From Ferrimonas balearica DSM 9799 (GTDB lineage Bacteria; Pseudomonadota; Gammaproteobacteria; Enterobacterales; Shewanellaceae), in NCBI RefSeq assembly GCF_000148645.1, contig NC_014541.1:3495139-3559138 (forward strand): a stretch of DNA of 64,000 nt, read 5' to 3'. Within the stretch, counting starts at the first letter, position 1. Each line of letters opens with the position of its first letter. A program made the position numbers and the translations under genes. Positions 38,055 through 49,321 of this stretch are shown here, piece after piece. Under the pieces are notes generated by a model. The model saw nothing but the letters and a program-made list of their open reading frames with translations. It was not told the origin of the DNA and did no database searches.

Positions 38055-39260
38055 ATGATCAACATTGACGATCCCAGCAAGGTAGAAACCACCTGGCCAC
38101 TCTGGCGTCTGGGCTTCCGCCCCTTCTTTCTCGCGGGCGCCGCTCTGGCAGTTTTGTTGATCCCCTATTGGCTGACGCTGTGGTACTACCCTGAGCTGAT
38201 CAATCGGCCCTTCTGGAGCCCGGTGATCCCACTGTGGTGGCACCCGCACGAGATGCTGTTTGGCTTTGCCATGGCCATCGTAGCGGGCTTTACCCTGACC
38301 GCCGTGCAAACCTGGACCGGCCAACCCGGTCTCAAGGGCTGGCCTCTGGCGGGCCTGTTTAGCTTATGGCTGGGCGCCCGGCTGGTATTGATGCTGCCCT
38401 ATGCCATCCCGTTGTGGCTGCCAGCCCTGCTGGACACCAGCTTTCTGCTGCTGACCGCAGCCCGGCTGGGGTGGAGCATCTGGCGTGTGCGTCAGTGGCG
38501 CAATGCCGCTTTCCCGCTGCTGCTGACCCTGGCCGCACTGCTGAACCTGCTGAGCTACTGGGCCCTCTATCAGCGCGATATGGTGCTGGCCAGTACCCTG
38601 TGGCAAGGGATGATCTGGTGGATGGCCCTGCTGATCACCTTTGTCGGTGGCCGGGTTATCCCCTTCTTCACTGCGGTGCGGCTGAAGCTGCCAAAGGCTG
38701 ACCCCATCCGCGCTCTGGACTGGGTCCTGTTTTCGGCGTTGGCGGTACTGGCGCTGGATGCCCTGTTCAGCGTGCTGCCTGAACCGCTCTGGCGCGCTAC
38801 GCTGCTTCTGGCCGGCGGCCTGCAGCTGGTGCGTCAGTCGCGCTGGCATGGCCACAAAACCCGGGGCGAACCCCTGTTGTGGTCGCTGCACCTGAGTTAC
38901 CTCTGCATCACCGTGACCCTGCTGGCCCTGGCCATCACCGGCAGTGATGAAGTGGCCCAGCGCCAACTGCTGCACCTGCTGGCGCTGGGCGCCATTGGCG
39001 GCATGTGCCTGGCCATGATCGCCCGGGTCTCGCTTGGGCACACCGGCCATAATCTCTATGAGGGACCGTGGATGGCTCCGGCCTTTGCCATGGTGCTGAG
39101 CGCCGCTCTGGTGCGCAGCCTGCTGCCTCTGTGGCTGCCTGTTCACACCGAGTTGTGGCACTGGCTGGCGGGCACCCTATGGTGCGGCGCCTTTGCCCTG
39201 TTCCTGTGGCACTACAGCGGCCTGCTGAGCCGCCCCCGACTTGATGGCCGCCCGGGCTGA
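38055..39260 (+). CDS. nnrS: NnrS family membrane protein
   Basis: A 401-residue polytopic protein with about 12 helices. It shows family features such as LWRLGFRPFFLAG near the N-terminus, LWWHPHEMLFGFAMAIVAGF, and a late ALGAIGGMCLAMIARVSLGHTG. NnrS contains haem and copper and protects against nitrosative stress, apparently by limiting iron-nitrosyl complexes in the cytoplasm. GAGAGG precedes the ATG. The gene is 37 bp upstream of nrfA and under the NsrR-like site, so both probably respond to nitric oxide. Confidence 0.9.
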   Translation: MINIDDPSKVETTWPLWRLGFRPFFLAGAALAVLLIPYWLTLWYYPELINRPFWSPVIPLWWHPHEMLFGFAMAIVAGFTLTAVQTWTGQPGLKGWPLAGLFSLWLGARLVLMLPYAIPLWLPALLDTSFLLLTAARLGWSIWRVRQWRNAAFPLLLTLAALLNLLSYWALYQRDMVLASTLWQGMIWWMALLITFVGGRVIPFFTAVRLKLPKADPIRALDWVLFSALAVLALDALFSVLPEPLWRATLLLAGGLQLVRQSRWHGHKTRGEPLLWSLHLSYLCITVTLLALAITGSDEVAQRQLLHLLALGAIGGMCLAMIARVSLGHTGHNLYEGPWMAPAFAMVLSAALVRSLLPLWLPVHTELWHWLAGTLWCGAFALFLWHYSGLLSRPRLDGRPG

Positions 39261-39297
39261 TAGACTGAGATTGATTTAAAGAGAATAAAGGATGCCG

Positions 39298-40659
39298 ATG
39301 TACCGTTCCCTTGCCCTGTTTCTGAGCGCCGGACTGCTGGGCTGTTCGCCTGCGCCCGACAGCGTAGACAATGCCGACTGGCAAGCCCCTTATCCGGCGC
39401 AGTACGACAGCTGGCTCAGTACCGAAACGGACACTGAACAGCAGGATGAACTGGCCCGTCGACCGGCCATGGTGGTGCTGTGGGCCGGGTCCAGTTTTGC
39501 CAAGAGTTACAACACGCCCCGTGGGCATCGTTTTGCGGTGGCGGACGTCACCCACACGCTGCGTACCGGCGTGCCGCCCAGCGGCCCCGATGACAAGGGC
39601 TACTCCGCCAGCTGCTGGACCTGCAAAACCCCAGATGCGCCCCGCCTGATGGCCGAGATGGGCGAGCAGGCGTTTGCCGCCAGCCAGTTCACCAGCCTGG
39701 GCATGGAGATGAGCAACACCGTCGGCTGCGCCGACTGTCATAAACCGGGCAGTGAAGCGCTGCAACTGGCCCGTCCCCACGCCAGGCACGCCATGGAGAA
39801 GATCCACCTGCCATTTGATCAGCAGGATGGGGCGATGCAGGGGGCCCAAACCTGCGGCCAGTGCCATGTGACTTACTACTTCCAGCCGGAGGCCAATAAC
39901 AAGGTCAATATCCCCTGGATCTTCGGCAGCACCGCCGACGAGATCGAGCGCTACTACGACACCCGTCGTTTCTATGAGTGGCTGCATCCTATCTCCCGCA
40001 CCCCCATGCTCAAAGCGCGCCACCCCGACTTTGAAACCTGGAGCCGCAGCCCCCATGCAAAAGCCGGGGCGACCTGCATCGATTGCCATATGCCGCAGCG
40101 CGAGGATGGCAACGGCCACGCCTACACCGACCACAACGTCGGCCAAGCTCTGGACAACTTTGAGCTGACCTGCGCTGGCTGCCACGACAGCAAAGGGGCC
40201 CTGAGTGCCACCCTGGCCCAGAATAAAGCCCGTATTGAGGCGGCGCGGGATTCCGTGGAAACGCTGTTGGTGCAGGCCCACTACGACGCCAAAGCGGCCT
40301 GGGATGCCGGGGCTGAATGGGCACAGATGGACAGTCCGTTGATGGACATTCGTCATGCCCAGTGGCGCTGGGACTTTGCCGTGGCCTCTCACGGCATCCA
40401 TGCCCACAATCCGGAAGAGGGGCTGGCACTGCTGGCCGTGGCCCAACGCCAGGCCACGATGGCCCGGGCTAAACTGGCGTTGCTGCATCAGCAGCTTGGG
40501 GTGACGGAAGTGACCTACCCGGACCTCAGCTCCAAGGCCGCCGCACAGGAAGCGGTGGGGATGGATATGGCCCGCTTTGAGACGGAAAAGGCGGCGTTTA
40601 TCCGCGATGTGGTGGCACCCAAATGGCCTGCCGCCGCCATGCGGGGTGCGCCGCACTAG
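39298..40659 (+). CDS. nrfA: Cytochrome c nitrite reductase NrfA, lipoprotein-type with altered calcium site
   Basis: NrfA reduces nitrite to ammonium in the periplasm with five haems. I use the second ATG (39298), six bases after AAAGG, giving 453 residues. The catalytic haem site CWTCK is at 106-110 and four CXXCH sites follow at about 144, 186, 260 and 292. The N-terminus ends in LLGC, a lipobox, so the mature protein is probably lipid-anchored rather than soluble. The residues that bind calcium in E. coli NrfA (Glu-Tyr, and Lys-x-Gln) appear here as Thr192-Tyr193 and Lys239-x-Arg241. An Arg in this place marks the calcium-independent NrfA subclass described from Geobacter lovleyi. No NrfH or NrfB is adjacent. 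Confidence 0.92.
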   Translation: MYRSLALFLSAGLLGCSPAPDSVDNADWQAPYPAQYDSWLSTETDTEQQDELARRPAMVVLWAGSSFAKSYNTPRGHRFAVADVTHTLRTGVPPSGPDDKGYSASCWTCKTPDAPRLMAEMGEQAFAASQFTSLGMEMSNTVGCADCHKPGSEALQLARPHARHAMEKIHLPFDQQDGAMQGAQTCGQCHVTYYFQPEANNKVNIPWIFGSTADEIERYYDTRRFYEWLHPISRTPMLKARHPDFETWSRSPHAKAGATCIDCHMPQREDGNGHAYTDHNVGQALDNFELTCAGCHDSKGALSATLAQNKARIEAARDSVETLLVQAHYDAKAAWDAGAEWAQMDSPLMDIRHAQWRWDFAVASHGIHAHNPEEGLALLAVAQRQATMARAKLALLHQQLGVTEVTYPDLSSKAAAQEAVGMDMARFETEKAAFIRDVVAPKWPAAAMRGAPH

Positions 40660-41196: not shown

Positions 41197-42297
41197 TTAC
41201 AGGAAGAAGCGGAAGCCAACAGCGTACTGGTTGTCGCCGTCACGGTCGTCACCAGTGCTGATGTTGTACTCAGCAAACAGCAGGGTGTTGCTGGTCAGGT
41301 TCTGGTGCACACCGAAGGACACGAAGGATTCGTTCCACTCGCCGTCGCCGTTGTCAGCAAAGCCAGGACGTTCGTCGTCGGTGTAGGCCATTTCCACTTT
41401 GCCGTCGCTCTCCAGCTGACGGTAGGAAACGAACGCGGTGGTGTTGGTTTCGAAGCCGTAAGCGGCCAGGAATTCCATACCGATGGAGTCACCGGTAAAG
41501 CGCATGCCCGCTTCGGTGTTGGTACCTTGCTGGTAGGAAGCCGCCAGGTACAGGTCTTTGCCCCACTGACCGTAAGCGGCGCTCACCTGCCAGGAGGTCA
41601 GCTCAGCGTCGTGCTTGGTGGAGTCCACCACGGTGTTGCCGTAGATCTTGTACTCACCGTTGATGTCACCACCGACGTAGGAGGTGCCCAGCTTGAACTC
41701 GCCGATTTGGTAGATCAGGCTACCACCGATGCGCTGGTCCAGAGCACCGTTCTCGCCCTGCCACTGCAGACCCAGGTTCAGGTTACCGAAGTCACCCAGG
41801 CTGAAGCCTTTGCGGTACTGGATGGCTTTGTCAGCACGGCCCATACCGGAATCGCCACCGTCAGTGTCGCCGGTGTAGATGCCCAGTTGGTCAGAGCTGA
41901 ATACCACCGGCATATCAGTCCACCAGGCGGCGTCGTAGTAGGTGGACCACTCTTTACCGAAGGACAGACGACCGTAGTCTTCGTGGCTCACACCCATGTA
42001 ACCCAGACGGGTGGAGAAGGAGTTGCCGGAGGTCATCATGTTGTAGCCGGTTTCGATCTTGGCATCCAGCGCGTAGCCGTTGCCCAGGTCGCGGTTGAAA
42101 CCGAAGTTGATGCGCGGAGAGTTCGGGCGCAGCTGGGTATCAACGTCCACACCCTGGTACCAGTCAACGTTGCTCAGCTGAGCGGTCAGGTGACCACCCA
42201 GAGTGATCTGGTTTACGCCGTCGTTGTACAGTTCAACAGCTTGGGCAGGCATGGCCATGGCGGCCGCGACAGACAGAAACAGAATGGACTTTTTCAC
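41197..42297 (-). CDS. General porin (OmpC/PhoE-like)
   Basis: The GTG at 42297, seven bases after AAGGA, gives a 366-residue protein with a signal peptide (AMPAQA) and a 16-strand-type porin sequence. The start is VELYNDGVNQITLGGHL, many aromatic girdle residues follow, and the end is AVGFRFFL. A longer frame exists upstream but has no ribosome-binding site. The gene is strongly codon-biased. It is preceded by a -24/-12 promoter and a CACGA-N4-TCGTG dyad like those of the lyase and flavocytochrome genes, so it probably admits the substrate of that pathway. Porin function is clear; specificity is inferred. Confidence 0.9.
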   Translation of the reverse strand: MKKSILFLSVAAAMAMPAQAVELYNDGVNQITLGGHLTAQLSNVDWYQGVDVDTQLRPNSPRINFGFNRDLGNGYALDAKIETGYNMMTSGNSFSTRLGYMGVSHEDYGRLSFGKEWSTYYDAAWWTDMPVVFSSDQLGIYTGDTDGGDSGMGRADKAIQYRKGFSLGDFGNLNLGLQWQGENGALDQRIGGSLIYQIGEFKLGTSYVGGDINGEYKIYGNTVVDSTKHDAELTSWQVSAAYGQWGKDLYLAASYQQGTNTEAGMRFTGDSIGMEFLAAYGFETNTTAFVSYRQLESDGKVEMAYTDDERPGFADNGDGEWNESFVSFGVHQNLTSNTLLFAEYNISTGDDRDGDNQYAVGFRFFL

Positions 42298-42339
42298 GCT
42301 TTGATCCTTTGTGGATTCATCAGAATTACCGTTCAAAGA

Positions 42340-42354
42340 GCGAAAGGTGTGCCA
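42340..42354 (-). promoter_or_regulatory. Sigma-54 promoter of the porin gene
   Basis: On the minus strand TGGCACACCTTTCGC has the GG and GC elements exactly 10 bases apart, as sigma-54 requires; the -12 reads TCGC instead of TTGC. It lies 43 bp before the GTG. Confidence 0.65.
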
Positions 42355-42429
42355 GCGTCTCTTTTGGGGGCCGAACCAGCCAATTCTTTGAGTTGCGAGG
42401 CGAAACAACGAAATGACGTGAAACCGCGT

Positions 42430-42443
42430 CACGAGATATCGTG
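42430..42443. promoter_or_regulatory. Activator site CACGA-GATA-TCGTG (porin)
   Basis: A perfect 5-bp dyad about 75 bp upstream of the sigma-54 promoter, with the same arms as the sites at the lyase and reductase promoters. Confidence 0.65.
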
Positions 42444-42470
42444 CCGATAACGAAATTGAACAAGCTGGAA

Positions 42471-42499
42471 ACGCGTCCCATCACATTGGCAGGACGCGT
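42471..42499 (-). terminator. Hairpin after the outer-membrane protein gene
   Basis: ACGCGTCC and GGACGCGT pair around a 13-base loop just after the stop at 42506. Only a short T stretch follows, so it is a weak terminator candidate. Confidence 0.5.
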
Positions 42500-42505
42500 T
42501 CACAT

Positions 42506-43276
42506 TTACAGCGACAGGCCAAAGGCGAGGCCGTATTCGAGATCACCCTGTGGCGTGGCGCCGATGCTGTCGAGGTGGCTCAGGTAGACCTTGGCGTAGA
42601 CCCGCTCGGACAGACTGGTCTTCAGGGTGTTCACCCACTGATGACCATAATCGTCGTAACGGAACACCTCCTGATGCCCTTCAGCCCGGTCAAACTGACC
42701 GTTGTAGGCGATGCTGAAGGCACTGTCCCGGCCCAGGGCACGGAAGGGGTAGCTGAGGTTCAGCGTGGCAAAGTAGCCACTGGGGCCGCTGTAACTGAGC
42801 CCTTTAGCGGCAAAACTGCCGAAGGCGTAGTGCAGGCCGGCGCCCACGGTGAGGGTGGCGGCGCCCAGATCCAGATCCCGGCTGGCCCCCAGGTAGAAGT
42901 TGTCTTCCACGGTGCTGGTGCTGGCACTGATAAAGTTCTGCAGCAGGGCATTCAGTCGCCCCTCCCACATCACCGGTTCCACCACATTCAGTGACTTAAA
43001 GGTGGTGCGACCGGACTGGCCCTGTTGATCACGGCTGACCTGCCCTGGGTTCTCCAGTTTGGTGGAGCTGAACAGGCGTCCCCAATCGTCCAGGTTGCGG
43101 TAGTCCAGCTGCAGGTAAGGCTGGTCGAACGCGCCGGGGTTGCGCGCCAGAGTGCCGGGGCTGTGCGCCTTGTAACCCACCTCAACGCTGGCGGCACTGA
43201 CGCTGGCCAGAGCGGTGGCCGGAGTCAGGCTGAACAGGGGCGCCAGCAGCAGGGCACAGTAGGCTGGTCGGAACAT
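42506..43276 (-). CDS. Outer-membrane beta-barrel protein (possibly Tsx/OmpK-like)
   Basis: The ATG at 43276, behind AAAGGAGAGGAT, gives 256 residues with a signal peptide. The mature part is a barrel with many aromatic strands and ends LAFGLSL. Strands such as PYLQLDYRNLDDWGRLFSS resemble Tsx/OmpK nucleoside-channel relatives, but I am not certain. The gene starts 30 bp after the terminator of the flavocytochrome operon, too close for a separate regulated promoter. It is therefore probably expressed by read-through with that operon and may help substrate uptake or product release. Confidence 0.6.
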   Translation of the reverse strand: MFRPAYCALLLAPLFSLTPATALASVSAASVEVGYKAHSPGTLARNPGAFDQPYLQLDYRNLDDWGRLFSSTKLENPGQVSRDQQGQSGRTTFKSLNVVEPVMWEGRLNALLQNFISASTSTVEDNFYLGASRDLDLGAATLTVGAGLHYAFGSFAAKGLSYSGPSGYFATLNLSYPFRALGRDSAFSIAYNGQFDRAEGHQEVFRYDDYGHQWVNTLKTSLSERVYAKVYLSHLDSIGATPQGDLEYGLAFGLSL

Positions 43277-43305
43277 ATCCTCTCCTTTGGTTAGCAACAT
43301 CACAG

Positions 43306-43334
43306 TGAAAAAAAGGGCCCCGAAGGGCCCTTTA
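43306..43334 (-). terminator. Terminator after the tetrahaem cytochrome gene
   Basis: AAAGGGCCC and GGGCCCTTT pair across CGAA, with a T run on the minus strand. It lies between the cytochrome gene and the outer-membrane protein gene. Confidence 0.85.
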
Positions 43335-43348
43335 ACATCGGCGGAGTG

Positions 43349-43744
43349 TTACTTCCGCTTCATTTCCGGATATTTGAACTCGTGGCACTGGTTGCAGTAC
43401 ACCTGAGGCTTCTTGTGCTCTGCGTGGCAGTAAGCACAGTTCAGATCCGTTCCATAGTGCAGGGAATCGTGCGGGTTCGGCTCAAACTCGGCACCGTGGC
43501 CAGGACGCTTGGTGGAATCCACCAGGTCTTCCATCGGGCCGTGACAACCCAGGCAGGTTTCGGTGGCCGGGGCGCTGAACGGCTTCTGGTCGCCGTGACA
43601 GGCCTGGCAGTCCACGCTGCCATCGGCAGAGGTGAACATCTCCTGGTGGTAGGATTTCATCGGCATCTTGGCGGCCATAGCACCGTGGTTGATGCCCAGG
43701 GCCAGGAACAGACCGGCCAGCAGAGTCAGGTTACGTTTCATCAT
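43349..43744 (-). CDS. Periplasmic tetrahaem cytochrome c, electron donor to the flavoprotein reductase
   Basis: A 131-residue protein with a signal peptide (GAMAAK) and four CXXCH sites (CQACH, CLGCH, CAYCH, CNQCH). This matches the tetrahaem domain of Shewanella flavocytochrome c3 and its split relatives. Here the haem domain is a separate gene, 18 bp after the flavoprotein gene in the same operon. Electrons would come from a membrane quinol dehydrogenase of the CymA type, which is not in this window. GAGGAT precedes the ATG. Confidence 0.9.
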   Translation of the reverse strand: MMKRNLTLLAGLFLALGINHGAMAAKMPMKSYHQEMFTSADGSVDCQACHGDQKPFSAPATETCLGCHGPMEDLVDSTKRPGHGAEFEPNPHDSLHYGTDLNCAYCHAEHKKPQVYCNQCHEFKYPEMKRK

Positions 43745-43761
43745 CTTATCCTCGGGTCCTA

Positions 43762-45321
43762 TCAGGCCAGTTGCAGTTCTACGGTGTTGCTGGCGAACGC
43801 GTGCTTGGCCGCGTTACGACCGGTTACCACACCTTCGGCTACCGCACAGGCACCCAGACGGGAGGCTCCGTGGATACCACCGGTGGCTTCACCGGCAGCG
43901 TACAGGCCGGTGATCGGCTTGTTGGTCACCAGGTGCAGCACTTCGGAGTGGGTGTTCACACGGACACCGCCCATGCAGTAGTGCACTTTCGGCCACATGC
44001 GCACGCCGTACCACGGACCCTCTTTCAGTTCGAACGCCTGCATCAGCGGACGGCCAAACTCTTTGTCTTCACCGGTGCGAACCGCTTCGTTCCAGCGCTC
44101 AACCTGAGCCACCAGCTTGTCAGCCGGCATGCCGTAGATCTCGGCCAGCTCTTCCAGGGTGTCGGCTTTCTTGATCACGTCGTACTTCAGACCCCAGGCC
44201 AGGGTTTGTGCCTGAGCGGCGCCCTTGGCGTTGGTGAAGCCAACCGGGTAAACCGGCTTACCTTCGTCGTCACGACGGGTCATGATGGCGTCGGCACGGG
44301 CCTTACGGTCAGCCAGTTCGTTGAAGAAGCGCTCGCCGGTGCGAACGTCAACCACCAGGCCGTTCTGGTAAGTGGCGATGGTGTTGAACTGAGAAGCGGT
44401 ACCGAAACCTTTCTCGTCCGGAGAGGACCACGGGCCCAGCTGGATCTGGTCCAGGTGAACCGGGTTGGCGCCTTCCAGCATCATCAGCTTCAGAGCGTCG
44501 GCGGTGGCACCAGCGTGGTTGGTGGAGTCCAGCTCGTCGGTCAGGGACGGCTGCTGGATCTGACGGAAGTCGATGTCGCGACCAAAGCCACCGGTGGCCA
44601 TGATCACACCCTTGCGGGCACCGTACATCTTCGGAGAACCAGAGCGTTTCTTCGGCCAGAAGTAGTCAGACTGAACCTGAACACCAACGATGCGGCCGTC
44701 TTCGTTCTTCACGAAGCCGCGCAGTTCGGTCTGGGTGTACATGGTCACGCCTTTCTTGTTCGCCACTTTGATCAGCGGACGAATGATGCCGGCACCGGAG
44801 CTTTCGCGGGTTTGCAGAATGCGCGGTACGGAGTGGCCACCGAAGTGCTGTACGAACGGCTTCCAGACGGTGCCGCGCTCTTCCAGCCACTTGGCGGATT
44901 CCGCGGTGCCATCACACACCAGTTCCAGCATCTTCTTGTCGTTCATGCCACGGCCTGCGGCCAGCATGTCTTCCACCATCAGAGCGACGCTGTCTTTTAC
45001 GCCCTCTTTCTCCTGCAGGTGGGAACCGGCTACCGCCATGGCGCCACCGTTGATGGTGGAGTTACCGCCAAATACCGGCATCTTGTCGATAACCAGTACC
45101 TTGGCACCGTCTTCAGCGGCCTGTACGGCCGCTGCCATGCCGGCAAAACCGGAACCCACTACGATGATGTCGTAGATCTCATCGAACTTCGGGGTTACCG
45201 GCTTGCACTCGCTCGCGCGGCTCGGGCCAGCCACCATCAGGGTGGCACCACCCGCGGCCAGGGCCGCGGTCTTCTTCAGCATCGCGCGACGCGACGCCAG
45301 CATGGGCTTGTCGTTTGACAT
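43762..45321 (-). CDS. Tat-exported flavoprotein reductase (fumarate/urocanate-reductase family), substrate unknown
   Basis: The ATG at 45321, eight bases after GGAG, gives 519 residues. The N-terminus is a twin-arginine signal (SRRAMLKK, then a hydrophobic stretch ending SRA). The FAD motif VVGSGFAGMAAAVQA and the family ends HYCMGG and GEATGGIHGASRLG identify the fumarate-reductase flavoprotein family. Compared with Shewanella Fcc3, the proton-donor Arg (R339) and the substrate-carboxylate Arg (R488) are kept. The HPT histidine is replaced in QLGPWSS, the Thr-Glu pair is absent, and the second His of HHTMGG is Tyr448. It is therefore unlikely to reduce fumarate. Its neighbour lyase suggests an unsaturated aromatic or imidazole-type acid. 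Confidence 0.88.
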   Translation of the reverse strand: MSNDKPMLASRRAMLKKTAALAAGGATLMVAGPSRASECKPVTPKFDEIYDIIVVGSGFAGMAAAVQAAEDGAKVLVIDKMPVFGGNSTINGGAMAVAGSHLQEKEGVKDSVALMVEDMLAAGRGMNDKKMLELVCDGTAESAKWLEERGTVWKPFVQHFGGHSVPRILQTRESSGAGIIRPLIKVANKKGVTMYTQTELRGFVKNEDGRIVGVQVQSDYFWPKKRSGSPKMYGARKGVIMATGGFGRDIDFRQIQQPSLTDELDSTNHAGATADALKLMMLEGANPVHLDQIQLGPWSSPDEKGFGTASQFNTIATYQNGLVVDVRTGERFFNELADRKARADAIMTRRDDEGKPVYPVGFTNAKGAAQAQTLAWGLKYDVIKKADTLEELAEIYGMPADKLVAQVERWNEAVRTGEDKEFGRPLMQAFELKEGPWYGVRMWPKVHYCMGGVRVNTHSEVLHLVTNKPITGLYAAGEATGGIHGASRLGACAVAEGVVTGRNAAKHAFASNTVELQLA

Positions 45322-45365
45322 GGATTGCTCCAAATAGGTCTTCTGCGTGTTATGCCAATTCAATT

Positions 45366-45380
45366 GCAGGGGGCGTGCCA
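45366..45380 (-). promoter_or_regulatory. Sigma-54 promoter of the flavoprotein-cytochrome operon
   Basis: On the minus strand TGGCACGCCCCCTGC matches the consensus -24 completely and has CTGC at -12, with GG and GC 10 bases apart. It lies 45 bp before the ATG. Confidence 0.8.
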
Positions 45381-45433
45381 GCAGGCCAAACCGGGGTGAA
45401 AAGGGGCAAATATATGATCCACCCCCAGCAGTA

Positions 45434-45561
45434 ACGAGATCTCGTCAGAACCCGGCACGATATTTCGCACCGCATCGCCAGATCCCGTGTTTTTCCCGAC
45501 ACTTGCGGGATCCTGATCCCACTTACATGAGAGTTCGAACCCGGTTTTACGAGATGTCGTG
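45434..45561. promoter_or_regulatory. Cluster of activator dyads upstream of the flavoprotein promoter
   Basis: Three sites: ACGA-GATC-TCGT at 45434-45445 (perfect), CACGA-TATT-TCGCA at 45456-45469 and TACGA-GATG-TCGTG at 45548-45561. They lie about 55 to 180 bp upstream of the -24/-12 promoter, the usual range for sigma-54 activators. The rest of the 45382-45683 gap shows no gene. Confidence 0.7.
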
Positions 45562-45683
45562 CTTTTGGCGACTTTTTCAGCGCTTGAAAGCCCCGGATAG
45601 GGCAGACTTAACGGCCGGTAACAGGCCGTCATGACGCCAGTCAGCGGGGAGATTGGCGTATCTGGGTGTGCCCGTTCGGCGGC

Positions 45684-45715
45684 ATAAAAAAACCGGTGCC
45701 GAAGCACCGGTTTTT
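45684..45715 (-). terminator. Terminator of the lyase gene
   Basis: AACCGGTGC and GCACCGGTT pair across CGAA with A and T runs at both ends. Confidence 0.88.
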
Positions 45716-45748
45716 CATCGCATTACAGGGCGTGATGAAAAGGTTGAG

Positions 45749-47395
45749 TTAGAACTGCTCAACCACCAGTTTGCCCGCGGCGATGTCCGGGGTGTACGGA
45801 CGGTCAACCTTCACGAAAGACACTTTCTCGCGGTAGGCGTCGTACAGCTTCTCGGTGGCTTTGCCCAGTTTCAGGTCCGGGTTTTCCATGCGACGCAGGT
45901 CGATGGCCTGAGTGCTGTGCAGCAGCTCAACACCGAACATGGTGTACAGGTTGTCGGTGATGCCGATCAGGTTGTCGGAAGCCAGCTTCATGTTGGTGAA
46001 GGTGTCTTCGATGTTACCGGCGATGGCGATGCCTTCGAAGGTCACCGGCTGAGCCAGGTGCTTGTTGCGGGTGTGCAGGTCAGCAAAGGTCTTCTGCACG
46101 GCACCGAACGCGTGGCCCATGTTGCCCGGCGCAGTCAGGAAGCGCGGCAGACCAGTGAAGTGGTCGTCGGACAGACGCAGGGTACGCATGGCGGTGTTGT
46201 GAGACACCTGAGCCAGGGCGATGTTCAGCTGTTGAACCGCCATGGCCACCGGCAGCGGGTTGAAGTTGGCAGTCGGGAATACGCCGCCTTTGCCATCCAC
46301 CAGGTACTGCTGCAGCTGGGATTCCTTCAGGTGCTCTTTGGACGGGTTCAGCACAACGGCCGGGTTGTCGTCAGAGGCGTTCACCTGGATCAGCAGCATC
46401 TTCTCCAGCTCGTCGGTGGCTTTCTGAGCCATGGCCAGGGTGTAGCCAGTGGTACGGAAAGAGAGCGGGTCTTGCAGCGGACGCTTGGCGTTGGCATCCC
46501 ACAGGTAGGAACCGTCCAGTTGCTCCAGGATGGTCTTGGACATCGCCTGTACGGACGGGAACGGACGCACCTCGTTGGTTTGCGGCAAGTAAGGCGCCAC
46601 GTTACCGTTCAGCGCTTCCAGAGACAGGGCGAAGGTGGTCGGAGCCACTTCCATCACCTGCTCAGCCTGCTTCAGGCCTTTCATCGCGTAAGCGGTGGCG
46701 AAGGCGTTGTTGGACAGGATGGACAGAGCGTCTTTACCGATCGGAGACAGCGGCTCAATGCCAGCGTCTTTCATCGCTTCGGCGGAGCTTACGCGCTCGC
46801 CTTTGTAGAACACTTCCCATTCACCGATCATCGCCAGGCCCACGTGAGAGGCCAGCAGGATGTCCGCTTCGCCCACGGTACCGCGGGACGGGATCACAGG
46901 AATGATGTCGTGGTTAAGGTACTCAACGTACAGGTCAGCCACTTCCGGCTGAACACCGGTTTGACCGTGCAGCAGGGTGTTCAGACGAACCGCCATGCCC
47001 AGGCGCACCATTTCGGCGTCCATCGGCTCACCCACACCGGCGCTGTGAGAGCGCAGAGCGTTGTACTGGAACTCGCGGGAGGCTTTCAGGGCTTCCGGAG
47101 TCATCTCACCGCTGGCATCGAACAGCTTGTGGTCTTTGTTCAGACCCACGCCGACGGTCAGACCGTAAACCGGCTTGCCGGTACGAGCGGCGGTCATCAG
47201 GGTGTCGTAGGCTTTTTCCAGACGCTTCTCGGCCTTACGGTCGATCTTCACCTCGGCGTCGCCTTCGGCGATCTCCCAAGCTTGGTCCAGGGTCATATCA
47301 AAGCCGTTCAGAACGACGGTATCTTTCGCGTAAGCACTGGTGGCGCCCAGGGTCATCAGGACAGCCAGGGCAATCTTGCTGGTTACGGTGTTCAC
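45749..47395 (-). CDS. Secreted aromatic-amino-acid-lyase homologue lacking the MIO triad (ergothionase-like candidate)
   Basis: The GTG at 47395, seven bases after GGAG, gives 548 residues with a clear Sec signal (ATSAYA), unlike cytoplasmic HutH. The fold is HAL/PAL: VYGLTVGVG with the conserved Tyr, SILSNNAFATAYAM, and NASDDNPAVV. The region that in true ammonia-lyases reads GSVGASGDLAPLAH is GTVGEADILLASH here (Glu176-Ala177-Asp178) and one residue shorter. The Ala-Ser-Gly that cyclises to the MIO cofactor is therefore absent. Ergothionase, which eliminates trimethylamine from ergothioneine, is a known HAL relative; my recollection is that it works without MIO. A MIO-free member exported next to a periplasmic reductase fits such a reaction, but the substrate is inference. 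Confidence 0.85.
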   Translation of the reverse strand: MNTVTSKIALAVLMTLGATSAYAKDTVVLNGFDMTLDQAWEIAEGDAEVKIDRKAEKRLEKAYDTLMTAARTGKPVYGLTVGVGLNKDHKLFDASGEMTPEALKASREFQYNALRSHSAGVGEPMDAEMVRLGMAVRLNTLLHGQTGVQPEVADLYVEYLNHDIIPVIPSRGTVGEADILLASHVGLAMIGEWEVFYKGERVSSAEAMKDAGIEPLSPIGKDALSILSNNAFATAYAMKGLKQAEQVMEVAPTTFALSLEALNGNVAPYLPQTNEVRPFPSVQAMSKTILEQLDGSYLWDANAKRPLQDPLSFRTTGYTLAMAQKATDELEKMLLIQVNASDDNPAVVLNPSKEHLKESQLQQYLVDGKGGVFPTANFNPLPVAMAVQQLNIALAQVSHNTAMRTLRLSDDHFTGLPRFLTAPGNMGHAFGAVQKTFADLHTRNKHLAQPVTFEGIAIAGNIEDTFTNMKLASDNLIGITDNLYTMFGVELLHSTQAIDLRRMENPDLKLGKATEKLYDAYREKVSFVKVDRPYTPDIAAGKLVVEQF

Positions 47396-47463
47396 TGCAC
47401 ACTCCGTTGGTCTTTCAATATTCATCGGTCACTGGCTTATGCCGGTGTCTGACAGATGAGTAG

Positions 47464-47478
47464 GCAGTTTATGTGCCA
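47464..47478 (-). promoter_or_regulatory. Sigma-54 promoter of the lyase gene
   Basis: On the minus strand TGGCACATAAACTGC has the -24 GG and -12 GC 10 bases apart. It lies about 69 bp before the GTG. Confidence 0.78.
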
Positions 47479-47530
47479 GCGGTTTTTCCGGCGCGCCAAA
47501 TGGTTCGAATCGGGATCGAGCGCAACCAGC

Positions 47531-47660
47531 TCCGAAATGTCGTGGGTCTTTAACACGATATGTCGTATCGGATAACGAGATGCGGCAACCCAATCCCGAA
47601 TCCCGGGATCCAGTCCGCGACGAAAATACCAACAATTCACTCGAATCACGAAGTATCGTG
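47531..47660. promoter_or_regulatory. Cluster of activator dyads upstream of the lyase promoter
   Basis: Sites are TCCGA-AATG-TCGTG at 47531-47544, CACGA-TATG-TCGTA at 47554-47567 and CACGA-AGTA-TCGTG at 47647-47660 (perfect). A half-site ACGAGATG lies near 47574. They sit 55 to 190 bp upstream of the lyase promoter and also directly before the divergent activator gene, so they may serve both. Confidence 0.72.
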
Positions 47661-47782
47661 ATCTTGTCAACAAAACATGAATTTTATCGCTGCGATGATG
47701 ACCCAGATATGACGTTCACCTCGGAAGTGTTGCTAAGTGTGTCGCACACTCCCTTGTCGCCAATGCGCAAAGGAGGTTGAAA

Positions 47783-49321
47783 ATGTCGTTGGAATTGTCG
47801 CTGTATCGGGAAGTCACTCAGACCCTCTCCAGCAGTTTGCAAATCGAAACCGCGCTGAAGGCGTGCTTCGCCGAGTTGCAGCCCCACTTTCCGGCCGATG
47901 GCATCTACATCAACTTGTTCCTGCCCGCCAGCCAGGAGATCCAAAGTGTCGCCGTGGCCGATGCCAACGGCGCCAAACAGCTGGATCGTCGCATCGCCCT
48001 GACCGAGGAGATGTGTCAGCTGCTGCAGGACCCGGACCGCCCGCTGGTGCGGATCCTGACCGATGTCCACCAGGACCCGGTGACCTACCACGTATTAAGC
48101 CAGGTGCTGCCCCAGGCCCGCTCCGTGGTGCAGCTGCGCCTGAAGATCGACGACACCCACCTGGGGGTTGCCGCGCTCTATGCCACCAAGGAGGGCGCGT
48201 TCAACAACCGCCACGCAGAACTGTTCCGCCAGTTCAAAGCGCCATTCTCGCTGGTGACCGCCTTTAACCTGCAGAGCCGTAATATGTTGGCCGACAACGC
48301 CCACCTGGCGTCCGAGAATCGCGCCCTGCGCCGTTCCATTGCCGGTCAGGATGAGGTGGTGGGCGCCCGCAATGGCCTGAAAACCGTAATGGAGCAGGTC
48401 GAGGCGATTGCACCGCTGGAAAGCACCGTGCTGATCACCGGCCAGACCGGGGTCGGTAAAGAGGTGATCGCCAACGCCATCCACCAGCGTTCTTCCCGCA
48501 CCGGCAAACCCTTTATTAAGGTGAACTGTGGCGCCATCCCCGACAGCCTGATCGACTCGGAGCTGTTTGGCTACGAGAAGGGCGCTTTTACCGGCGCGGA
48601 GAAACGCAAGCAGGGCTACTTTGAGCAGGCCAACGGCGGCACCATCTTCCTCGACGAACTGGGCGAACTGCCGCTGTCCGCGCAGGTGCGCCTGTTACGG
48701 GTATTGCAGAACCGCACCATTGTCCGGGTGGGCGGGGTAGAGCCGGTGGAGCTGGACATCCGGGTGGTGGCGGCAACCCACCGGGATCTGGCCCAGATGG
48801 TGCAAACCGGCGACTTCCGGGAAGACCTCTGGTACCGCCTGAACGTCTTCCCCATCGACATTCCGGGCCTGAATCAGCGACGCCAGGATATCCCCCTGCT
48901 GGTGCACCACTTTATGGAGCAGCTGGCCCCGCGCCTGGGCTTTAAACAGCTGCCGGCCATCAGCGGTGAAGATATGATGCGACTGCAGAACCACGCCTGG
49001 CCCGGCAACGTGCGGGAACTGGTGAACGCGGTCGAGCGCGCCATGATCCAATCCCGCGGTGGCCCACTGGATTTCCGCTTCCTCAGCTGCCCGGTGGCCG
49101 GACACGCCATTCCCGAAAGCGATGGCGAGCGTCCGGTGATCATCGACCCCAGCCACGCCACCGACATGCTGGTGCCGCTGGACGTGATGACCGCCAAGTA
49201 TATGGAGCACGCCCTGCGCTTAACCGGCGGAAAAATCCATGGCCCCGGCGGTGCGGCAGAGCGCCTGAAGATCCATCCCAATACTCTGCGCAGCCGGATG
49301 AAGAAGCTCGGCCTGCTGTAA
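47783..49321 (+). CDS. Sigma-54-dependent activator (GAF-AAA+-Fis)
   Basis: The ATG at 47783 follows AAAGGAGG by six bases and gives 512 residues. Residues 1-170 or so form a GAF-like sensory domain. The AAA+ domain has Walker A GQTGVGKE, the GAFTGA loop that contacts sigma-54 and Walker B GGTIFLDE. A Fis-type helix-turn-helix (AAERLKIHPNTLRSRMKK) ends the protein. It lies divergent from the lyase gene, and its upstream region and the island promoters share the CACGA-N4-TCGTG dyad, so it is the natural candidate activator. The GAF ligand could be the lyase substrate. A role in control of the downstream hydrogenase is less likely because that operon has an FNR site and no visible -24/-12 element. 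Confidence 0.9.
   Translation: MSLELSLYREVTQTLSSSLQIETALKACFAELQPHFPADGIYINLFLPASQEIQSVAVADANGAKQLDRRIALTEEMCQLLQDPDRPLVRILTDVHQDPVTYHVLSQVLPQARSVVQLRLKIDDTHLGVAALYATKEGAFNNRHAELFRQFKAPFSLVTAFNLQSRNMLADNAHLASENRALRRSIAGQDEVVGARNGLKTVMEQVEAIAPLESTVLITGQTGVGKEVIANAIHQRSSRTGKPFIKVNCGAIPDSLIDSELFGYEKGAFTGAEKRKQGYFEQANGGTIFLDELGELPLSAQVRLLRVLQNRTIVRVGGVEPVELDIRVVAATHRDLAQMVQTGDFREDLWYRLNVFPIDIPGLNQRRQDIPLLVHHFMEQLAPRLGFKQLPAISGEDMMRLQNHAWPGNVRELVNAVERAMIQSRGGPLDFRFLSCPVAGHAIPESDGERPVIIDPSHATDMLVPLDVMTAKYMEHALRLTGGKIHGPGGAAERLKIHPNTLRSRMKKLGLL

Follow-up and report, generated by a model that had tools for sequence, protein, structure and literature searches.

A predicted periplasmic ergothionase with its own flavoprotein reductase and four-haem cytochrome in Ferrimonas balearica: a candidate module for ergothioneine respiration

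Ferrimonas balearica is a marine iron reducer. In the 64,000-nucleotide stretch of strain DSM 9799 analysed here (NC_014541.1, positions 3,495,139 to 3,559,138; referred to as the window, whose numbering is used throughout), a secreted homologue of the ammonia-lyases that lacks the MIO cofactor triad is encoded beside an exported flavoprotein reductase and a cytochrome c, which raises the question of what the lyase makes outside the cytoplasm and whether the reductase respires it. We consider it likely that the genes form a self-contained periplasmic module, in which ergothioneine is converted to thiourocanate and trimethylamine and the thiourocanate is then reduced in respiration. In the scheme that we infer, which extends to the substrate, the two reactions, the route of the electrons, the regulation and a role in respiration, ergothioneine would enter through outer-membrane channels, a secreted ergothionase-type lyase, which would need no MIO group, would eliminate trimethylamine to give thiourocanate, and a Tat-exported flavoprotein would reduce the C=C bond of thiourocanate to give the propionate. 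The electrons would pass from menaquinol via a quinol dehydrogenase of the NapC/CymA type and the four-haem cytochrome to the flavoprotein, and a sigma-54 activator would switch on both transcripts and the porin. Such a system would be a respiration of the urocanate type in which the organism itself produces the acceptor from a betaine.

The gene set and its control region

The lyase, reductase and cytochrome genes all lie on the minus strand where a sequence-only reading of the window had placed them, and its central description, a MIO-less lyase of the Sec type adjoining a Tat-type flavoprotein reductase and a four-haem cytochrome, was confirmed. The predicted periplasmic ergothionase, a MIO-less secreted lyase of 548 aa from the Pfam family Lyase_aromatic, is encoded at 45749-47395 and starts at 47395 with a GTG after GGAG. 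The mechanical ORF begins 10 codons further upstream at 47425 (558 aa), and the length of 548 aa recurs in the relatives L033, L034, L044 and L047. The flavoprotein enoate reductase, a predicted thiourocanate reductase of 519 aa, is encoded at 43762-45321, and 17 nt downstream of its gene lies that of the four-haem cytochrome c (43349-43744; 131 aa; Cytochrom_c3_2, 58.5 bits), the predicted donor of electrons to the reductase. The same strand carries a Tsx-type outer-membrane channel (42506-43276; Channel_Tsx, 67 bits), a possible entry port, and a porin (41197-42297; Porin_1), which is probably a member of the same regulon. Divergently, on the plus strand, a sigma-54-dependent activator of 514 aa is encoded at 47777-49321 (Sigma54_activat, 239 bits); it is the predicted regulator of the cluster and scores below the cut-off of every listed NCBIfam model.

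Sigma-54-type -24/-12 sites were found on the minus strand upstream of the lyase (TGGCACATAAACTGCC, 47463-47478, 9/12 matches) and of the reductase (TGGCACGCCCCCTGCA, 45365-45380, 11/12 matches), and a similar site was recognised by eye upstream of the porin (42339-42354). A palindrome, ACGANATNTCGT, recurs with at most one mismatch three times between lyase and regulator (47532-47659; at 47532, 47555 and 47648), where the copies are predicted activator sites, three times upstream of the reductase (45434-45560; at 45434, 45457 and 45549) and twice upstream of the porin (42408-42442; at 42408 and 42431). Sigma-54 sites are present in 46 of 49 upstream regions, and an activator homologue of at least 40% identity is found at the locus for 38 of the 52 lyases with a reductase. 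The predicted activator, its putative promoters and the local palindrome bind the cluster into one unit. A sigma-70 scan of the region gave no site. Behind the lyase gene lies a terminator-like hairpin (45688-45715, minus strand; a perfect 12-bp inverted repeat around a loop of 4, with a run of T in the arm), so that the lyase and the reductase-cytochrome pair are probably separate transcripts; a terminator scan gave 7 sites, about as many as expected by chance, and the hairpin is not one of them.

A lyase related to ergothionase

The Sec signal attributed to the lyase is visible by eye, and its relatives are Sec-like too in a simple hydrophobicity scan. In the triad region, the lyase reads GTVGEA-DILLASH versus GSVGASGDLAPLSH in the normal HAL encoded elsewhere in the same genome; therefore, the lyase lacks Ala-Ser-Gly and is one residue shorter here, with GEA-D where MIO lyases have GASGD, as had been claimed. 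The Glu-Ala-Asp occupies positions 176-178 in the 548-aa form and 186-188 in the 558-aa ORF, to which the residue numbers Glu186, Lys445 and Lys97 refer.

The ergothionase of Treponema denticola (PDB 6s7j, 6s7q) was reportedly described by Maurer et al. in 2019 (cited in PMC13405746). Its entry 6s7j is both the top PDB sequence match of the lyase (295 bits; runner-up 197 bits) and the top match in the fold search, in which the target-normalised TM-score is 0.91 for HAL 7tqr and ergothionase alike, so that the two are separated only by E-value and identity (27% and 36%, respectively). Furthermore, 31 alignment columns are common to the lyase and Treponema ergothionase and rare in 23 MIO lyases, and in a quick tree the two group together with an SH-aLRT of 100 against HAL, the Treponema branch being long. 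The grouping with MIO enzymes that the sequence-only reading had named as counting against it was thus found in neither the tree nor the fold search, both of which gave ergothionase. The enzymes share the fold, the absence of the triad, the one-residue deletion, the NKD motif, which contains Lys97, and the Glu/Lys pair at 186 and 445; the roles of these three residues in ergothionase are presumed. The F. balearica lyase, which is 36% identical to the Treponema enzyme in the fold alignment, has a predicted signal peptide and is partnered with a reductase and a cytochrome.

These results bear on the reading of the locus as an ammonia-lyase respiration of the MIO type, in which histidine, tyrosine or phenylalanine would be deaminated and urocanate or cinnamate reduced. 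The shared Pfam family and a urocanate reductase as the closest solved reductase speak for it, but with the triad missing and one residue deleted, a score of 291 bits against the hutH cut-off of 539 bits (NCBIfam), the placement with ergothionase and a normal HAL elsewhere in the genome, we regard it as very improbable. Membership in the MIO-dependent ammonia-lyases was rejected on the missing triad and the hutH score, and the three amino acids are disfavoured as substrates because the triad is missing. The lyase is instead predicted to cut trimethylamine off ergothioneine in the periplasm.

Residues 186 and 445, the reductase and the choice of substrate

Glu186 and Lys445 are both present in Treponema ergothionase and the F. 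balearica lyase, in all 14 lyases with desulfurase and thiourocanate-hydratase homologues nearby, and in 50 of the 52 lyases paired with this reductase type, the other two being second copies whose loci also hold a typical lyase. None of the eight lyases adjoining the urocanate reductase UrdA has the pair, the E. coli hut-operon lyase has neither residue, and three Enterococcus lyases in a different gene setting combine Glu186 with Val445. The relatives were found with patterns containing VGVG.NKD and GEW, so that conservation of these motifs follows from the search itself; residues 186 and 445 lie outside the patterns. Family names assigned by eye were then checked. In the quick tree, most hydratase-linked lyases form a single clade and those paired with UrdA belong to two lineages, and the substrate mark therefore reflects few independent switches. 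The earlier choice of ergothioneine as leading substrate is supported by the Glu186/Lys445 lyases near homologues of thiourocanate hydratase and thiohydantoin desulfurase; in these degradation sets (NCBIfam NF058530, NF058529), which share a homologous lyase with both residues, thiourocanate would be hydrated and desulfurised, not reduced as proposed here. The two-residue rule makes the substrate prediction testable.

The reductase has an FAD_binding_2 domain and reaches 479 bits with NCBIfam flavo_cyto_c (TIGR01813; cut-off 285), and no FMN_bind or haem domain is listed for it in Pfam. Its twin-arginine motif (SRRAMLKK near the N-terminus) and the separate cytochrome gene bear out the reported Tat export and separate haem partner. 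A loose twin-arginine pattern matched 49 of 49 reductases. The cytochrome has CxxCH at residues 46, 64, 103 and 117, and four such motifs occur in 51 of 51 cytochrome matches. The closest solved structures are UrdA (6t85) and Fcc3. Equivalents of the UrdA catalytic residues Arg411, His520 and Arg560 are kept, Tyr373 is replaced by Gly and Glu177 by Ala, and there is a 5-residue insertion at Asp388; the catalytic residues are kept, and Tyr373 and Glu177 are not, in 51 of 51 aligned members of the class. Identity with UrdA was rejected because of the replaced Tyr373, the insertion and the missing N-terminal FMN domain. An Fcc3 fumarate reductase did not fit either, with Gly at the place of the hinge histidine, which we take to be residue 365, and a separate, not fused, cytochrome.

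UrdA of Shewanella oneidensis (PDB 6t85-6t88; PMC7921117) shares the fold of FAD and clamp domains, the catalytic Arg/His/Arg and enoate reduction outside the cytoplasm, whereas the F. balearica set has no FMN domain, a separate cytochrome and an acceptor-making lyase of its own. The architecture of a Tat flavoprotein with an adjacent exported four-haem cytochrome (signals by motif and by eye) resembles Mrd/Mcc of Geobacter sulfurreducens AM-1, where the cytochrome is a Sec protein and both form one transcription unit; its substrate is methacrylate or acrylate, and the portion of that paper available names no lyase (PMC4427408). The F. balearica genome holds five NapC/NirT matches, and a NapC/NirT gene lies inside the Campylobacter cluster described below.

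As the remaining alternative for the substrate, the same architecture could serve another betaine: hercynine (histidine betaine) or a further N-trimethylated imidazole, S-methyl-ergothioneine, or an N-trimethylated aromatic amino acid of another kind, with the reductase taking the matching acrylate. Lyases of the same build adjoin UrdA (8), occur near an S-methyl-thiourocanate hydratase homologue in Paracoccus onchidii and lie in an E. coli hut operon, which makes further substrates within the family probable; five diverged lyases (36-39% identity) with a reductase and cytochrome of their own point the same way. However, these relatives have L/N, D/D, A/I or Q/V at 186/445, whereas the F. balearica pair is that of the hydratase neighbours and Treponema ergothionase, and its reductase differs from UrdA at the three sites given above, so we hold another betaine to be unlikely at this locus, though worth keeping in view. 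In six named genomes, one lyase adjoins this reductase and another adjoins UrdA, which argues for two different products. For the whole class, the chances seem to us evenly balanced that exported MIO-less lyases strip trimethylamine from N-trimethylated amino acids and cognate flavoprotein-cytochrome pairs reduce the enoates, the pairs being matched to ergothioneine (Glu186/Lys445 lyases), hercynine (UrdA partners) or other betaines (diverged cassettes).

Distribution, purpose and known context

Absence of the reductase from the side of the lyase in relatives had been named as speaking against the pathway; the opposite was seen, as all 53 close lyases in 152 genomes of the host's family lie within 2.4 kb of a reductase, and chance grouping is therefore not at issue. 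G030, a genome of the genus, carries the reductase with cytochrome, channel and activator and has no lyase, so a lyase partner is not indispensable to the reductase; the Tsx-channel homologue there is 37% identical, adjoins reductase and cytochrome and has no Pfam match. A Tsx channel also adjoins UrdA in L037. G030 would fit use or disposal rather than respiration, with the lyase taking nitrogen from ergothioneine or depleting an antioxidant outside the cell, and the reductase clearing an inhibitory enoate or acting on a different substrate, as would the homologous lyase in an apparent degradative route in Serratia, Paracoccus and others. We consider this improbable, since a four-haem cytochrome is near 52 of 52 reductase-paired lyases, export is of the Tat type, the relatives of the reductase (UrdA, Fcc3, Mrd/Mcc) are respiratory and a private cytochrome would hardly be needed for disposal.

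Returning to ergothioneine respiration, the same pairing occurs in enterobacteria, Sutterellaceae and one Campylobacter assembly, and the gene set is present in the gut residents Sutterella, Parasutterella, Turicimonas, Citrobacter and Hafnia. F. balearica and many relatives, including some gut bacteria, may use ergothioneine for respiration when oxygen is absent. Selenoneine, the selenium analogue found in sea animals, might be a further substrate in marine species. In a class-wide sample, the reductase was matched at E <=1e-140 only in F. balearica's own genome among 369. Spread by plasmids was rejected, as the 31 plasmid records with a lyase (E <=1e-90), 26 of them from Sinorhizobium, are all below 60% identity. 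The cassette of Escherichia sp. L086 had no megablast match in the E. coli collection, and of the records from a looser search there, a single one was inspected, in which the only lyase type was that of the hut operon.

A search of full-text literature, with most subscription journals outside its coverage, returned no single-organism ergothioneine respiration and no such lyase-reductase set, and the flavinylation literature examined contains no lyase terms. The published acceptors of F. balearica, in the source parts available, do not include ergothioneine and give no sign of its trial. Gut bacteria are reported to cross-feed thiourocanate (Zhou et al., 2025, via PMC13405746), which reportedly supports both growth and the synthesis of ATP in Bacteroides xylanisolvens (PMC13405746); there, too, ergothioneine is converted to thiourocanate, which enters anaerobic energy metabolism, but between organisms, whereas in F. 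balearica a single organism holds the whole gene set. The 2026 paper that cites this work used BLASTP with one ergothionase, inferred a restriction of the enzyme to few genera, took the matches as ammonia-lyases and conceded that more divergent homologues might escape notice (PMC13405746). Our results suggest that some genes named ammonia-lyases without MIO may encode trimethylamine lyases, which would bear on the sources of trimethylamine. If the proposal is true, single bacteria would be able to respire a dietary antioxidant and would release trimethylamine in the process.

The five diverged cassettes occur in Ferrimonas and Shewanella, two of them back to back in F. senticii. Distances between lyases and between reductases correlate with r 0.84 (21 hand-chosen pairs; 0 of 2000 permutations as high), a value given little weight because it partly reflects species relatedness. 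In F. senticii, the lyase P1 has its nearest relatives among lyases paired with UrdA (48 and 52%), yet its reductase belongs to the other class; therefore, at least one exchange of partners between lyases and reductases has taken place.

Lyase of the window cluster

The cluster in the window comprises, all on the minus strand, the genes for a porin (41197-42297), a Tsx-type channel (42506-43276), a four-haem cytochrome (43349-43744), a flavoprotein reductase (43762-45321) and a lyase (45749-47395), with the gene for a sigma-54 activator (47777-49321) divergent from the lyase. The account of this cluster in the sequence-only reading was correct in all details checked. In the alignment, the lyase lacks the Ala-Ser-Gly triad, the source of the MIO cofactor of HAL-type ammonia-lyases, and has one residue fewer at that place. 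The genome, a single contig of 4,279,159 bases, also carries a normal HAL with ASG. Also in the window, at 38055-40659, a gene for an NnrS-family membrane protein is followed by one for a cytochrome c552 of the nitrite reductase family.

Among solved structures, the Treponema ergothionase is the top sequence match of the lyase with 295 bits, followed by a HAL with 197 bits, and on the hutH model the lyase scores 291 bits, below the cut-off of 539. A fold search with the AlphaFold model of the lyase (mean pLDDT 88) returned the ergothionase first (E 5e-35, 36% identity) and HAL 7tqr second (E 9e-30, 27% identity), with a target-length TM-score of 0.91 against both. The 83 relatives, including the window lyase, share with the Treponema enzyme 31 alignment columns that are rare in 23 MIO lyases; four of these (93, 96-98) fall within the pattern used to find most of the relatives, and 27 are independent of it. 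In a quick tree of 63 rows, the Treponema enzyme and all relatives stood apart from HAL with an SH-aLRT support of 100, the Treponema branch being long. The window lyase is very probably a trimethylamine lyase, and ergothioneine is its likely substrate.

Reductase, linkage and predicted path

UrdA, the urocanate reductase of Shewanella oneidensis, and the fumarate reductase Fcc3 are the nearest solved relatives of the window reductase. According to excerpts of PMC7921117, Arg411, His520 and Arg560 of UrdA keep the substrate in place and provide the proton. Their equivalents are present in 51/51 reductases of the window class and in 8/8 UrdA-like partners of other lyases; two distant flavoproteins (27-29% identity), which were also caught, miss some of them. 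Throughout the window class (51/51), Tyr373 of UrdA is replaced by Gly and Glu177 by Ala, and an insertion occupies the place of Asp388; the UrdA-like partners retain Tyr and Glu in 8/8 and, by eye, Asp388 as well. The genome holds a large set of flavoprotein reductases: a UrdA-like protein gave 14 match segments in it, and seven of these, the window reductase included, span the FAD domain.

Linkage was surveyed in 152 genomes of the family at identities of at least 67% for the reductase and at least 62% for the close lyase (one match being partial). The reductase was found in 54 genomes and the close lyase in 53, all of which also have the reductase on the same contig, with 42 to 2,388 bases between the two. 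The 54th genome (G030, of the same genus) has a set of reductase (67%), cytochrome (48%), Tsx-like protein (37%, Pfam silent) and sigma-54 activator (47%) at L128 5644-10025, with no lyase in the genome at the survey thresholds, and may use thiourocanate produced by others. Neither reductase nor close lyase occurs in the other 98 genomes, three of which have a more distant lyase (41-44%). The gene order is lyase-reductase-cytochrome in Ferrimonas and reductase-lyase-cytochrome in Shewanella, the set standing together in both. A loose twin-Arg pattern was present in 49/49 reductases examined and four CxxCH motifs in 51/51 cytochrome matches. A simple scan gave Sec-like N-termini in most Gram-negative lyases, some ORF starts being unsure, and none in three Enterococcus lyases. 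In a Campylobacter assembly (L111 10806-13480), a reductase in two ORFs, a four-haem cytochrome and a NapC/NirT-family protein adjoin the lyase.

In the proposed path, ergothioneine would enter through the porin or channel and, as the kinship and residues of the lyase suggest, would be cleaved to thiourocanate and trimethylamine. By analogy with UrdA, Fcc3 and Mrd/Mcc, the methacrylate reductase/cytochrome pair of Geobacter sulfurreducens AM-1, the reductase would then reduce the C=C bond with menaquinol electrons passed through a NapC/NirT protein, of which the genome encodes five, and then the four-haem cytochrome. Read from sequence, the whole path from ergothioneine entry to thiourocanate reduction appears fairly probable. 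The individual steps are already known, namely ergothionase, UrdA-type respiration, Mrd/Mcc and the use of thiourocanate by gut bacteria, the last as described in excerpts of a citing paper (PMC13405746). A full-text literature search with partial coverage found no report of the combined lyase-reductase set.

Lyase neighbourhoods and diverged relatives

A collection scan yielded 79 named loci, drawn from the top 80 of 152 that were confirmed. Loci from other genomes were then added, and the neighbourhoods of 82 lyase genes (L040-L119) were tabulated. The window-class reductase lies near 52 of the 82, on the same strand in all 52 and with the cytochrome in all 52. Eight have a UrdA-like protein nearby, 14 lie near homologues of thiohydantoin desulfurase and thiourocanate hydratase, and eight occur in other settings, L108 and L115 among them with a hydratase homologue and no desulfurase in view. 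The NCBIfam cut-offs were passed by 6/6 thiourocanate hydratases scored (L040, L099, L107, L110, L113, L117) and 3/3 desulfurases scored (L040, L099, L117); the remaining ones near the 14 lyases were assigned by similarity to the L040 proteins.

At lyase positions 186, which lies within the loop replacing the MIO triad, and 445 (numbering of the 558-residue ORF), the Treponema ergothionase and the window lyase both have Glu and Lys (E/K). The same pair occurs in 14/14 lyases near the desulfurase and thiourocanate-hydratase homologues and in 50/52 near the window-class reductase; the two exceptions, T/K in F. senticii and D/D in Sutterella seckii, are second copies whose locus also holds a typical one. 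UrdA-paired lyases have D/D (four) or L/N (four), and those in other settings E/V (three, Enterococcus), E/K (two), T/K, Q/K and Q/V, the Q/V lyase (L108) having a homologue of S-methyl-thiourocanate hydratase (912 bits against a cut-off of 880) at a distance of 4.7 kb. The neighbour genes suggest which substrate a lyase may use. The 186/445 mark reflects few independent switches, as on the tree the UrdA label must change at least three times and the thiourocanate-hydratase label at least twice, the UrdA-paired lyases forming two lineages, Shewanella and Sutterellaceae. Both lyase kinds, paired with the window-class reductase and with UrdA, are carried at separate loci by Parasutterella excrementihominis, Turicimonas muris, Shewanella schlegeliana, S. 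carassii, S. chilikensis and an uncultured Shewanella. It would be strange for one product to have two types of reductase; two products are the simpler explanation.

Six further stretches were examined. Four of them hold five lyases of 36-39% identity (two in F. senticii, the others in another Ferrimonas-genus genome and two Shewanella-group genomes), which have other active-site residues and are each accompanied by their own window-class reductase (37-46%) and four-haem cytochrome, suggesting that the module proliferated and its substrate changed; the remaining two hold a lone lyase and a UrdA pair. At the F. senticii locus (L144 5776-13855), two diverged reductase-cytochrome-lyase sets stand back to back, their lyases having active-site residues unlike those of ergothionase or of the UrdA partners.

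Relatives of the lyase were also seen in other settings. The Enterococcus locus L082 (3410-10548) encodes a lyase that has no signal peptide and, around it, a CoA-transferase (Pfam CoA_trans), an MFS transporter and a flavoprotein of the NMO family, the family of FabK. This locus also has a sigma-54 activator, 42% identical to that of the window over 233 residues, and L084 and L094 resemble it in lyase and activator; the set is perhaps a cytoplasmic CoA-dependent form of the same reduction. On the Sinorhizobium meliloti symbiosis plasmid pSymA (L143 6929-8569), a MIO-less lyase of the window lyase's family has Q186/A445, a type named histidine ammonia-lyase in some sister records. In E. coli CFSAN061771 (L142 768-8509), a MIO-less lyase with a signal-like N-terminus and A186/I445 is encoded inside a hut operon. 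The operon also has a cytosine permease gene, hutD, hutI, hutG and hutU, whose product scores 934 bits on the urocanate-hydratase model, and no hutH is annotated within the 15-kb stretch. DNA partly like the search query (38% of it) occurs in 142 of 5,426 E. coli genomes, one of which was inspected. The lyase perhaps converts hercynine to urocanate, and it may bear on an old report of an E. coli ergothionase mentioned in excerpts of PMC13405746.

Promoters and palindromes

Regions before the lyase and reductase were scanned in Ferrimonas and Paraferrimonas, and those before the reductase in Shewanella. Of these 49 regions, 46 contain a -24/-12 site that matches at 9 or more of the 12 positions, with 1.9 expected from single-base shuffles; the upstream region of the window activator, one of the 49, has fewer matches. 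With no more than one mismatch, the palindrome ACGANATNTCGT has 8 sites in the window versus 0.56 expected, all within 42408-47659: two in front of the porin gene, three in front of the reductase gene and three between lyase and activator. Six exact sites occur genome-wide (reversed control, 2), four of them in the window cluster, one within an ORF and one some 280 bases upstream of an iron-only-hydrogenase-like ORF (L150 about 5948, position 2300947 of the genome). When one mismatch is allowed, the genome-wide count is 47, below the 128 of the reversed control, so that it is the clustering that carries meaning and not the single site. A hairpin is present behind the lyase gene, which suggests two transcripts under one activator. 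In the loci of 37 relatives, the density of the palindrome is 1.58 per kb upstream of the lyase or reductase versus 0.085 per kb elsewhere, and 30 of the 37 have at least one site upstream of either gene.
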